The translations under genes were made by a program, and so were the position numbers. A stretch of 64,000 nt of DNA. Origin: Tubulanus polymorphus (Eukaryota; Nemertea; Palaeonemertea; Tubulaniformes; Tubulanidae). This document shows positions 511 through 9,778 of this stretch, piece by piece (within the stretch, counting starts at the first letter, position 1; each line of letters opens with the position of its first letter). Where the stretch lies: contig NC_134027.1 of assembly GCF_964204645.1 (NCBI RefSeq), positions 26,958,485 to 27,022,484 on the forward strand, written 5' to 3'. The notes beneath the pieces were generated by a model. That model was not told the DNA's origin. It ran no database searches and saw only the letters and a program-made list of their open reading frames with translations.

Positions 511-3006
511 AATGTGATGGGGCATTCATACAGAGATTGCGGCATATAATCGGTGATAAGAATGTATCGACTGGATTAGCAATACGTGAACAACATGGCA
601 AAGATGAATCATTCTCCAGGTTTGCGTCTGTCTGAGGTGACAGCGTGAGATCTTCTCCCTCCTATTCTTCACTGACTGTTCGTGATTCTGTTGTTGTTTC
701 AGATTGTATCCTCCTGATGTTGTCGTATTCCCGCAATCGACTGAACATGTCAGTCGTTTAATGAAAACCTGCTACGAATCGCGAGTTCCGATAATTCCTT
801 TCGGTACGGGGACCGGACTGGAAGCTGGTGTTAGTGCAGTTCAGGTGCGTCGATCTATTTCAATCCAATCAAGAGAAATATTCACTCGTTTAAACGGAAT
901 GTTAATAATGTAGTTCTATTTGTTGAATATAGGGCGGAGTTTGTTTCGATTTGATGAGGATGAATAAGATTAATGCGTTGTACGCTGAGGATTTCATGTG
1001 TACAGTTGAACCAGGTGTTACTAGAAAAACACTGAATTCTTATCTACGAGATACAGGACTCTGGTTCCCAGTTGGTTAGTATACATTTCTCTCTGTCTGT
1101 CCCATTCTGTCCAAGAAGCCGATATTAGGGGCACTATCGCACCGAAATGCACCAATTGAATTATCTTTGTTGACAAAATGAAAAATGGCGCCTAAAAAAA
1201 TGTTACAGATTTGTCTCACAAATCCCCCTGGATCTGTGGAGAACACTGACCAAATAACATAATATTCACTGGTCATTAAACTTATAACCTCTCAGTTGTG
1301 AGTCGTCCAACACCTTCCCGAAAACTGTTGGGATTCAGACTACTTACTTACCAAACCATGAAGATAGGAATATTCATTTAATCATTAACTATATTTGATA
1401 GTTCACGGAATGAAGAATGTGTGATGAACTGATTGATTTTCTAGATCCGGGAGCTGATGCTTCATTATGTGGTATGGCAGCGACGAGTGCGTCGGGAACT
1501 AATGCAGTACGTTATGGAACAATGAAAGATAATGTGATTAATTTAGAGGTGGTTTTAGCTGACGGAACCATCATTCACACACAGGGACAAAATAGAAGAT
1601 CAAAGTAAGTATTATTATTCATAAGCCAATTTCATCTAAACTTTAAAACATTTTTTATGTTTGTTATTTTTGTTTTCCTAGGAAATCAGCAGCTGGTTAC
1701 AATTTGACTAATTTATTTGTCGGATCTGAAGGAACTTTAGGGATGATAACTCAGGCCACGTTGAAACTTCACGCGATGCCAGAAACTGTGAGTTTCCTGT
1801 TACACATTTTAATTTCAAGTCAATTTCTCGTTTATATGAAAACTATTTAAGTGTTTTACTTAATATTTAGATGGTATCAGCGGTTTGTCAGTTTCAATCC
1901 GTACAAGAAGCTATCGATACTGCAGTTCAGTGTTTACAAGTATCTCTTCCTATTGCGAGAATAGGTAATCTATTCTATTCTACAGTCAGATTTCTCCATT
2001 CATCAACCTTCGAAAGTCAATCTATTTCTGTTTTGTTTCATTGAATTTTCAGAATTTCTAGACGAAGTTATGATGGAAATGTCGATTAACTACAGCAGTC
2101 TGGAAGGATACGAAAAACTACCGTCTTTATTCGTGGAATTTCACGGTTCTGAAAATACGATTCAGAATCAGGTCGACGTATTCCGTAAGTTGAAACAATT
2201 ATTTGTATCTCGTATTATTTATGATAGATAAAGATTGATTTGATTAGTTTGTTATTTTCAGAGGAAATTGCTTCCAATAACAACGGCTCGTCATTTCATT
2301 GGGCAAAAGAACTAGAGAAAAGAAATATTTTATGGAAGGCTAGGCATGATGCATGGTACGCAGTATTAGCATCTAGACCTGGTTGTAAGGTATTTATAGT
2401 TCTCAGACTCGGTATCTTTCATTAAATAATGAACTTATTATGAGTAAATCAGTGAACGTGTTTAATACAGGCTAAATCTACAGATGTATGTGTGCCTATA
2501 TCCCTCCTTCCTGAGGCTATTAGACAAACACGTCTGTTACTGAATCAAAGTAAACTTCTAGGTAAGACTTTATTTGAATGATTCACCCCTGGGGTAACTA
2601 TGAAACTGGGCCTTAGTTTTTGATGATTTTGTGTTCGTTAATTGTAGGACCTATCGCCGGACATGTAGGCGATGGAAACTTTCACGTGGCTATAGCTTTC
2701 GATCCAGAAAACTCGGATGAAGTCGCGGAGCAGCATTACCTTACAGAATCAATCGGAGAGTAAGTTGTGAAACCAGTTGAATCATTGCCGATTATTTCTG
2801 TTTATTTTGAAATTGGAATTTTCTGTTATTGCAGGATTGCGTTGAATCTAAATGGTACATGTACAGGAGAACATGGAATAGGTCATGGAAAGAGAGAGCT
2901 ACTGGTAAAGGAAATGGGAACGAACTGTATCAACACGATGAAATCAATTAAAACCTGTTTAGATCCACTGAATTTAATGAATCCCGCTAAAGTATTTCTT
3001 GAATGA
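511..3006 (+). CDS. LDHD: D-lactate dehydrogenase, mitochondrial (partial, 5' end outside window)
   Basis: FAD-linked oxidase that converts D-lactate to pyruvate in mitochondria (role known from the family). Exons: 511(or 501)-619, 703-844, 933-1074, 1445-1604, 1682-1787, 1871-1964, 2053-2184, 2262-2389, 2471-2561, 2648-2759 and 2835-3006, ending in TGA. All junctions are GT-AG and keep frame. Visible hallmarks are the FAD-binding [14 protein letters not shown] loop, [42 protein letters not shown], the C-terminal HVGDGNFH segment and [15 protein letters not shown], all typical of FAD-binding type 4 / GlcD-family enzymes. The N-terminus with the expected mitochondrial targeting signal is missing; bases 1-510 are intron. 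The gene converges on CNBD1, with 544 bases between the two stop codons. No broken exon is seen. Confidence 0.95.
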
Positions 3007-3333: not shown

Positions 3334-3603
3334 AACATGATTAGACACAGAGTTAGAATCATGATTGAACATTATTTCCCTGTTCTCTGTCTTTGTTTTC
3401 TGTCCCGGACTGGTTTTATAAAGAACATGATTAGACAGAGAGTCTGAATCATGATTAAACATTATTTCCCCGTCCTCTATCTTTGTTCTCTGTCCCGGAC
3501 TGGTTTTATATAGAACATGATGTTCAGGGAGTTTGTTTTACGATTGAACATCATTTCGCCCATTTTCCGTGTCCCGGACGAATACCGCGACCGTTTATAA
3601 CGT
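3334..3603 (-). repeat. 90-bp tandem repeat derived from the CNBD1 stop-codon region
   Basis: Three copies with an exact 90-base period begin at 3334, 3424 and 3514 (shared start AACATGATTAGACA or a variant). The copy nearest the gene contains the real end of the CNBD1 coding sequence, with a CGTCCGGGACA-type motif, the stop and the first 3' UTR bases. The other two copies lie downstream on the minus strand and repeat the same segment with substitutions. Tandem duplication of the last codons plus proximal 3' UTR is the simplest reading. Confidence 0.75.
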
Positions 3604-6600
3604 CTACTACTATTGAATGTTTAAATTCATTCCATTCTCGTTTTAGTTCTTGTTTCATGTATTCATCGTGTATTTCTTCCTGAAATCATCAATATAAATC
3701 AATGTCAATTAATTCTCTCATCTGAATGATTATTCTATTGAAAACAGACCATTCATTAAGTACGTATACTTGGGCGAGTGGAGTGAAAATTTGACAAATT
3801 TTCCGCCTGTGAGGATCAGCAAAATTTTACCTAGTATATGAACAGCCCGTAATTCCTCTGAACCTACCTGTGTGACCTGACCGAAAGTTTTTTGGCTTGA
3901 TTGTAGAAGCAGTTGCCTGGTTATATCATTGAGCTCTGAAAAACATTTCAAAGGAGTTAGTGAGTTCTGAATTATATCTAGTTTCAGGACTGTATGAATA
4001 TGAAGAGTTATTGCTTACCTGATAATCGAGCTGGAAATATAACTCCAATAACAGTTGATTTAGCAGTAACTATTGAACAAGTAATCGGCTCGTCATTGAG
4101 TACACTGATTTCTCCAAACGATTCTGACGGCCCCAAATTTCCCATTACAACTTGTTTAGTTCGACGCTCCTGGAAAGAGAGAAGCAAACAATGTTTTTAT
4201 TCATCAATTACAAACATTGATTCAGATTTAAAGTTTTGAAGTTCTGTAATAAAAAATCTGACACTAGAAAATAGAATCCAAAATTTTTCTTCGAGCAAAT
4301 GGTTTATGCAATATTGCGACTAAATCCTAACCATCATCTTCAGGAATTTAATATACTTGTTACAACATCAATGATTATTTTGAACTGTACCTTTTTACCA
4401 TTTCGTAATGTGTGAATAGTTTCTGCTTGTCGTAGAACGTGACACATTCCAGATTTTATATATCCAAGAAAAGGTGCTTTGAATCCTTCAGTAACAATCA
4501 CTGAAATCAATTCACATTCAGTTATTTCTATGAAACGGTTAATAATAGTAAGAAAGAATGATAGTATATCTTTCCTACTTGTATTAGCAGGACATGTTTT
4601 CCTACTTGTAATAGCAGGGAATGTTTTCCTACTTGTATTAGCAGGGAATGTTTTCCTACTTGTATTAGCATGGAATATTTTCCTACTTGTATTAGCAGGG
4701 AATGTTTTCCTACTTGTATTAGCAGGGAATGTTTTCCTACTTGTATTAGCAGGGAATATTTTCCTACTTATATTAGCAGGGAATGTGTTCCTACTTGTAT
4801 TAGCAGGGAATGTTTTCCTACTTGTATTAGCAGGGAATGTTTTCCTACTTATATTAACAGGGAATGTTTTCCTACTTGTATTAGCAGGGAATGTTTTCCT
4901 ACTTGTATTAGCAGGGAATATTTTCCTACTTATATTAGCAGGGAATATTTTCCTACTTATATTAGCAGGGAATGTTTTCCTACTTATATTAGCAGGGAAT
5001 TTTTTCCTACTTGTATTAGCAGGGAATGTTTTCCTACCTGTATTAGCAGGGAATGTTTTCCTACTTATATTAGCAGGGAATATTTTCCTACTTATATTAG
5101 CAGGGAATGTTTTCCTACTTGTATTAGCAGGGAATGTTTTCCTACCTGTATTAGCAGGGAATGTTTTCCATGTAATCAGATTTCCGACGGCTAATAACGG
5201 TTGTCTAGTCCACATTTTATAACTTGGACACGACTGCAGTAAATTAACTTTTTCAGTTTGATCTCTGGTATTCATTTGCTGAAAGGTAGATATAATAAAT
5301 ATCAGTTTGATAAGAACCTCTAGAACGGCACAGTCCGCTAGACCCAATTCCACAGTTGTGAGTTAAGATTTGACTGAGAGTTTATTCATTCAAAATGAAC
5401 TGATTTAACTCTAATTCATAACTGAGGATCCTGGATCTTAAAGCCATTACCCAGTTGTGAATTAAAGTTAACTCGAAGTTGAAATTAGTTCAGTTTCAAT
5501 CAGTTCATTCTCAGTCAAATCTTAACTCTGGATCTGGATCCAGACCGAAGAAATAAAAGGTTGCCTAATTTTTACCTCCATCGTTCTGTGGAAATCTGAG
5601 GCTGAAATTTTCAGTAGTTCAACAGGTTCCGAAGTGACGACTGATAGAACGCGAGTATTCGTAGCTCTACCTTCAATCTTCTTTAAAGTTCCGAAACAAT
5701 CGCCTACTTTCAATTTCGGCTGAAAACAGATAAAAATGATAATTTTTAAATTACTGTAAATATTGATGTATGTTTCAATGTAAATGAAATTTGAACTTTT
5801 TTCTTACCAAATTTTCATTATCGGTCTCGCGATCGAACGGCACCGGACTCGTAAAACCTAATTCTGATTCGTGTAATAATCGATAATACTGATGTGATAA
5901 AGCACGCACTGATCCTTTCAGTATGAGGTGAAATCCGCTATTACCAAATACTGCAATTTAATATATCTCATTATCATCTATTTACATATAACATTTACTA
6001 TAATGATAATTGCAGAATGATGATAATTCAGAGTCTATTTCTCTGGTAGTTTCCAGAGATTTATCTAAATCCCATCTTTGGAGAAACAGTAATTACCATA
6101 AGCTTCAATACTGTTTCTGTAAAAATAGATTTAGATAGAAACTATTCATGTTCTACATCACTGAGAATACAAATCAGTTTATCAGTGATTCGACATTCAG
6201 TGTTTATTACAGTCAAATCTTACTGGTAAATTCGGGTGTTTTCCAAGTCTCCAGTTGCGCTACCATACACAATTCTTTCAATTGATCATCGTTCACTTGT
6301 TTACTCAACATAGGATAAGACTTCAGTATGTTGAATAATGTATGATTCTCACTCACATTTCTATCAAATGGCCTACACAATAAAAATGAAATATTTCATC
6401 TTTTTATGTTAGTGAACTGTAAGATATATTCAAACTCATGCTGTATTCGTAGATGACTTTTACTTAAATATTTGAAAAATAACTAGACATGATTTAGGTA
6501 TTGTAACGACCTAAACTAGTTCCATTGTATGAAGAAACAGTTTAAACTTACAACTTGCGTAGAATTTTTCTCATATTTTTGATTCCATCACGTTTTATGG

Positions 6601-9144: not shown

Positions 9145-9778
9145 TTAACCGTGATAGTTTGATGTGGTGCTTGCGATATACGACGCGAAGAAAATCAGAT
9201 AAATAATCAAAACGGCGATCCACAAAACATGTAAGGCGATACCGCAGCCTAGAGTTATCATACACCATCGACGAGCTTCCCTGGAGAGCTGCTGAGCTCC
9301 GGGTCCATCTCCTCGCCTTATAGCATCCCTAACTTCTGTAGACTTTATAACAGCCACGATACCTAACGGCCAAAAACAACACAATAAAACTAAAATCGCC
9401 ATCACCAGATAATCCGACGGTGGATTAGCGAGAGGGGCTGCCTGGGCGACGATAATCTGTTGATTACCAGGTGCGTAATATCCAACAGGTTGGGCGGCGT
9501 ATTGGACACCTTGAGGTGGATATTGTCCACCTTGAGGTGGATACTGTCCACCTTGAGGTGGATATTGTCCACCTTGCTGTGGTGGATATCCACCCGGTGG
9601 TCCACCATACTGAGGGGCCCCTGAAACAGAAAAATACAAATATTTTATCTACAGCGGGGAACTCTATATTGAAAACCTTGTTGAATTAATTATAGAGGAT
9701 TGTTTGGAATATCAATTAGCGGACTGTACCTGGTGGAGGCTGGTTGTACGGTGGAGGTGGTTGCTGTTTATCCGACAT
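9145..9778 (-). CDS. CD225/dispanin family proline-rich transmembrane protein
   Basis: Two coding exons, 9778-9730 and 9620-9145, give a 174-residue protein. The N-terminal third (about residues 1-70) is proline-, glycine-, glutamine- and tyrosine-rich, with a PPPPY motif (a candidate WW-domain ligand) and repeats of QYPPQGG encoded by a 21-bp minisatellite. The second half shows the CD225 fold: a segment with CCFWPLGIVAVIKS, a conserved loop (EVRDAIRRGDGPGA, LSREARRW), then a long hydrophobic helix ending near YLIFFASYIAS. The paired cysteines beside the first membrane segment are a possible palmitoylation site, as known in the IFITM/PRRT relatives. The family acts at membranes, in trafficking and fusion control; this member's role is unknown. 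A 5' UTR intron is likely, with an acceptor at 9801-9802. Confidence 0.9.
9502..9580 (-). repeat. Coding 21-bp minisatellite in the dispanin gene
   Basis: Three to four copies of a 21-base unit (CCTTGAGGTGGATATTGTCC plus one base on the + strand) encode the QYPPQGG repeats of the proline-rich tail. The unit length is a multiple of three, so copy-number change would keep the frame. Confidence 0.8.

Follow-up and report, generated by a model that had tools for sequence, protein, structure and literature searches.

A 27-bp minisatellite across an exon-intron boundary repeats a splice donor in a CNBD1-like gene of Tubulanus polymorphus

The CNBD1-like gene and its exon junction

The window is the whole 64,000-nucleotide stretch of the Tubulanus polymorphus genome analysed here, and positions given without a contig are counted from its first letter. 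A CNBD1-like gene lies on the minus strand, from about 6733 to 3551, and its joined exons, including the next exon upstream of the eight listed below, encode an open product of 402 residues. PF00027, the cyclic-nucleotide-binding domain, is found in two stretches of this product (E = 2e-14). The parts of the gene that matter for the repeat are as follows, where a slash marks a splice junction.

Eight exons within 3551-6372, minus strand: 6372-6224, 5950-5808, 5719-5576, 5278-5146, 4500-4391, 4169-4019, 3935-3868 and 3679-3551; joined translation open to the stop
5146-5278, minus strand: exon 5′ of the repeat-bearing intron, ending in WKTFPANT and the first base of a Val codon (phase 1), with donor CAG/GTAGG at 5145
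4391-4500, minus strand: next exon, beginning (G)TG ATT GTT ACT, or VIVTEG
5951-6223, minus strand: intron in the matching place of the first cNMP domain (WKTPEFT/I), phase 1, without an array

The exon at 5278-5146 has the 3′ end TGG AAA ACA TTC CCT GCT AAT ACA G, and splicing of 5146 to 4500 restores the cyclic-nucleotide-binding domain, with PF00027 spanning the junction (E = 3.8e-10). Aligned with human CNBD1, the product is 34% identical over 279 amino acids and gapless at the WKTFPANT/VIVTEG junction. This agreement appears far beyond chance, and the comparison is to be read as a lead rather than as a database test. No paralogue of these exons, and thus none lacking the array, was found in the 268-Mb, 77-contig genome. 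The 3′ untranslated region of the same gene holds an older repeat of 90 bp (3334-3561), the first copy of which is diverged and begins about ten bases before the stop codon.

Anatomy of the array

The exon boundary at 5146 lies inside a tandem array, which is a minisatellite with a 27-bp unit in 22.2 head-to-tail copies, as seen in one assembly.

4571-5169, minus strand: 27-nt tandem array (Tandem Repeats Finder: 22.2 copies, 94% matches, 0% indels, score 1051)
4501-5145, minus strand: phase-1 intron of 645 nt (divisible by three), stop-free in the retained frame, with acceptor TTTCAG at 4501
4501-4570, minus strand: unique 3′ part of the intron (70 nt), with a pyrimidine-rich stretch and the acceptor
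5035-5061, minus strand: unit 5, the sole internal unit with a strong donor, CAG/GTAGG, whose first intron base is 5037

Unit 1 (5169-5143) consists of the last 24 bases of the exon plus GTA, while units 2-22 are 21 intronic copies that end at 4576 and are followed by a 5-bp partial copy, GGAAA. The donor CAG/GTAGG occurs at 5145 and 5037 only, and the remaining 20 units read CAA/GTAGG or TAA/GTAGG. A 26-base stretch of the unit has no second occurrence in the 268-Mb genome, where the array was found once.

A sequence-only reading of this stretch had assigned the gene to CNBD1 and joined WKTFPANT to VIVTEG; the PF00027 match and the identity to human CNBD1 agree with the first, and the spliced translation, with PF00027 across the junction, bears out the second. 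It had also described about 22 units of 27 bases at the boundary, and their coordinates and unit are confirmed, with the count refined to 21 intronic units and the exon's own copy. Its proposal that the array was born from the exon-intron boundary is supported, and its frame arithmetic stands, with an intron of 645 nt that is stop-free in the retained frame. The claim that nearly every unit carries a donor-like site, better at 5145 and 5037, held for these two sites; the refinement is that most copies have A, not G, at the last exon-equivalent base.

Donor strength and predicted products

Eighteen introns were delimited by hand in the two genes of the window that are best resolved: the CNBD1-like gene and a plus-strand gene at about 600-3006, which from its sequence we take for D-lactate dehydrogenase. 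Duplex energies with U1 for these 18 real donors range from −4.5 to −11.8 kcal/mol. The authentic donor at 5145 and the unit-5 donor at 5037, identical in sequence, both reach −10.7 kcal/mol, while the other 20 array donors, with A for G at position −1, reach just −4.2 kcal/mol, below all 18 real donors. A position-weight score built from the other 17 donors points in the same direction (4.44 vs 2.16 or 1.46), though it places a few real donors as low as the A-type units. With 20 of the 21 intronic donors below the whole set of 18 real donors in strength of U1 pairing, a splice ladder would realistically have two rungs, and the unit-5 donor can be regarded as the one credible internal competitor of 5145.

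Use of donor 5037 would add 108 nt, or 36 residues, inserted ahead of the domain's first strand. The PF00027 score is 40.1 bits for the normal product, 39.4 bits for the unit-5 product and 29.3 bits upon full retention, in which the unrelated intron tail lies directly before VIVTEG. Since each unit ends in KTFPANT, nearly every unit's donor would rebuild the KTFPANT-VIVTEG junction. This self-repair of the junction, a point absent from the sequence-only reading, would seem to explain tolerance of the array better than it argues for a function, and no evidence was found in the sequence that the intronic repeats are used.

It is unlikely that splicing draws appreciably on both 5145 and 5037, so that CNBD1 is made in its normal form and also with an insert of 36 residues immediately ahead of the first strand of the second cNMP domain. 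Such a pair of products is consistent with the identical local sequence and U1 pairing of the two donors (−10.7 kcal/mol each), with the unit-5 product being in frame with its domain score intact, and with the human ABCA7 repeat, where use of the next donor in the repeat amounts to about 2% (PMC5954066). However, the ABCA7 precedent is one of low use only, and by predicted local structure the unit-5 donor costs more to open than the authentic one (9.7 vs 6.3 kcal/mol). It is very unlikely that the array works as a length-variable in-frame ladder by which individuals or tissues insert 0, 36 or more residues into CNBD1 at the edge of its second domain while keeping that domain.

The open frame and protein constraint

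A stop in the retained frame is created by just 1 of the 81 single changes of the unit, and simulated arrays with 10 to 40 random changes are open in 55-94%. Two antisense frames across the array are likewise open, so the open retained frame is not special and is uninformative. The 75 nt 3′ of the last full unit are also open, a state reached by 10% of shuffles. Amino-acid-changing differences make up 20 of the 21 differences among units and 9 of the 10 distinct changes, where random changes would give 62 to 18.

Three further candidates were set aside. Selection on the array at the protein level was rejected, as nearly all unit changes alter an amino acid. The GTAGG donor core is unchanged in 22 of 22 units, yet with about ten distinct changes this is unremarkable (P ~0.16 by our own estimate). 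Weak matches of the retained translation to DUF7514, Zn-C2H2_12 and others, with no stretch passing alone, are regarded as repeat noise.

Exitrons are coding introns that are in frame and optionally spliced. The CNBD1-like intron resembles them in being stop-free and a multiple of three, and differs from them in that its retention is predicted to disturb the domain and in that the flanking exons and intron ends are ordinary. Frequent retention of the intron, which would place (KTFPANTSR)n in the protein, fits the 645-nt stop-free length and the units without indels. This reading is highly improbable: retention would put an unrelated intron tail before VIVTEG and lower PF00027 to 29.3 bits, the intron has a normal donor, pyrimidine tract and acceptor, 20 of the 21 unit differences alter the amino acid, and the two antisense frames are equally open. 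The sequence-only reading had suggested an exitron or a many-rung splice ladder, and neither is supported, given the weakness of 20 of the 21 intronic donors, the uninformative openness and the mostly amino-acid-changing unit differences. Its own caution that openness alone shows no selection agrees with the single-change count and the simulations above.

Origin and persistence of the array

The array is most likely an intronic minisatellite, neutral or close to it, that was seeded on an old exon-intron junction and grew by tandem duplication. With the repeats removed, the sequence reads TGGAAAACATTCCCTGCTAATACAG/GTAGGAAAGATATAC and holds two copies of GGAAA at a spacing of exactly 27 bp. The seed would have been a single-copy ancestor, TGGAAAACATTCCCTGCTAATACAG/GTAGGAAAGATA, with two GGAAA exactly 27 bp apart, where slippage could duplicate the exon end together with its donor; the second GGAAA could instead be the remnant of a partial unit. 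In an early copy, a G-to-A change at the last exon-equivalent base would have weakened the donor and spread by further duplication. The series of units 5-9 (G; consensus; A7+T22; T22; T7+T22) resembles that of units 1-4 (G; consensus; T22; T7+T22), which suggests that a later block duplication of about four units carried the exon-edge unit to position 5. Splicing would run mostly from 5146 to 4500 and give the normal domain, as conservation and site strength suggest, perhaps with occasional and harmless use of the unit-5 donor. A unit that is divisible by three, is stop-free and ends in KTFPANT would make such use tolerable, and this tolerance can explain the persistence of the array without a function. 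Against the neutral reading stand the 0 indels, which keep frame and length, and the open 75-nt tail, both of which a coding role would also predict, along with a unit-5 donor whose strength equals that of the real donor.

The intron itself is probably older than the array, since the first cNMP domain has a matching phase-1 intron without one. It is therefore scarcely likely that tandem duplication of an AGGT-containing exon segment created the intron. New introns have been described as arising by tandem duplication (PMC4974935), and the units do contain AGGTAG or AAGTAG; however, the 70-nt 3′ part is not derived from the unit and has its own acceptor, and an intron in the same phase sits at the corresponding position of the first cNMP domain.

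Predicted RNA structure

The authentic donor may pair within a local hairpin.

5141-5158, minus strand: possible hairpin CCUGCU-AAUACA-GGUAGG pairing the authentic donor, predicted at −6.1 kcal/mol

The stem is predicted to recur in each unit as CCUGCU-AAUACA-AGUAGG, with the donor-like site inside it. The folding energy of the array gives z = −10.6 against ordinary shuffles and p = 0.13 against shuffles that keep the tandem layout; a single unit gives p = 0.012. From these folding models, the case for a structured array appears weak. It is hardly credible that the array serves U1 snRNP as a sink or docking platform, or that its RNA structure conceals decoy donors and directs splicing to 5146: every unit has the GTAGG core, which can pair within a 6-bp stem, and array donors, with opening energies of 4.5-11.5 kcal/mol, mostly resist opening more than random GT sites do (median 3.9), but U1 pairing is poor in twenty units and the low array energy is largely an effect of repetition, as 13% of tandem-kept shuffled units fold as well.

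Apart from the array's own folding, the intron tail (4501-4578, minus strand) is predicted to pair with the last unit's donor in an 11-bp stem. If the intron were collapsed to a single copy, the authentic donor would lie inside this stem and its opening energy would be 11.3 kcal/mol, against 6.3 kcal/mol now, so the array may have moved the authentic donor out of the stem.

Other arrays in the window and the genome

Tandem repeats occupy about 10% of the window, in about 25 arrays. With array ends placed at random, terminal units would be expected to hold about 2% of donors (two ends x 25 x ~27 bp / 64 kb), a rough figure that ignores selection, and one array-borne donor among 18 is thus unsurprising. 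Elsewhere in the window, an open frame on the minus strand at 9145-9648 has a coding repeat (PPQGGQY) followed by membrane-like segments, and a 21-bp repeat at 9500-9576 lies within its apparent coding sequence.

A narrow scan of the genome for strong donors repeated within 46 nt found two further arrays that copy the end of a coding exon and its donor.

L013, G000:C1:92235-92490 (locus coordinates 1490-1762): biotin-protein-ligase-like (HLCS-like) gene, BPL_N E = 1.6e-10; 31-bp unit, 8.8 copies
L019, G000:C1:519993-520035 (locus coordinates 1473-1554): cytochrome-b5-reductase-4-like (CYB5R4-like) gene, PF00175 E = 1.4e-11, PDB 6mv1 E = 7.8e-17; 35-bp unit, 2.3 copies

L013 has nine donors in a row, all strong (U1 −9.6 to −11.0 kcal/mol), and in L019 the exon end and donor are duplicated, with both donors equally strong. 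As in the CNBD1-like array, the unit of each joins the end of a coding exon to its donor; unlike in that array, the units of 31 and 35 bp are not multiples of three and the donors are all strong (−9.6 to −11.0 kcal/mol). Each L013 donor is preceded by a pyrimidine-rich stretch and CAG, and the units resemble joined acceptor-donor (recursive-splicing) sites. Together with the share of tandem repeats in the window, these two arrays favour the neutral reading of the CNBD1-like array. Most other donor-bearing arrays examined have no recognisable coding exon adjoining them. A long array at G000:C1:30370534-30372458 has another 27-bp unit, with the donor-like AGGTATGT in each copy.

A genome-wide excess of donor pairs at close spacing was considered and rejected, as counts against a reversed control are inconsistent across motifs (CAGGTAAG, 42 vs 65; CAGGTGAG, 360 vs 145; AGGTAAGT, 55 vs 178; AGGTATGT, 200 vs 55) and are dominated by a few large arrays.

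Relation to known systems and significance

The CNBD1-like array is of the same kind as the repeat in intron 18 of human ABCA7, its closest precedent and the sole close case found in the literature on donor-multiplying minisatellites. In ABCA7, the unit is 25 bp long, the donor of exon 18 is part of the repeat, and arrays range from about 12 to more than 400 units (De Roeck et al., 2018; PMC5954066). Every unit starts with a donor GT, a product retaining one unit is found at about 2%, and skipping of exon 19 increases with array length (PMC5954066). The two arrays share a similar unit length, a position directly at the exon's donor and a repeated donor-like GT. They differ in that the ABCA7 repeat starts at the GT, whereas the CNBD1-like unit includes 24 exon bases, and in that 25 bp is not a multiple of three, as 27 bp is, so that retention of one unit in ABCA7 shifts the frame. 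The effect of length on splicing was measured in ABCA7.

Intron gain by tandem duplication offers a second comparison, as in potato RdRp, where a single duplication made a new intron (PMC4974935). In both cases, a tandem duplication that crosses a boundary copies splice signals, but the CNBD1-like intron pre-existed and was lengthened by many copies.

The CNBD1-like array illustrates how donors can be multiplied harmlessly, with a unit that is a multiple of three, is stop-free and re-makes the exon end in each copy. Were the donor of unit 5 or of a unit beyond it used, the length of the protein would be set by a minisatellite through splicing. Since further boundary-born donor arrays exist in this genome, it could serve to test how the spliceosome chooses among near-identical neighbouring donors.
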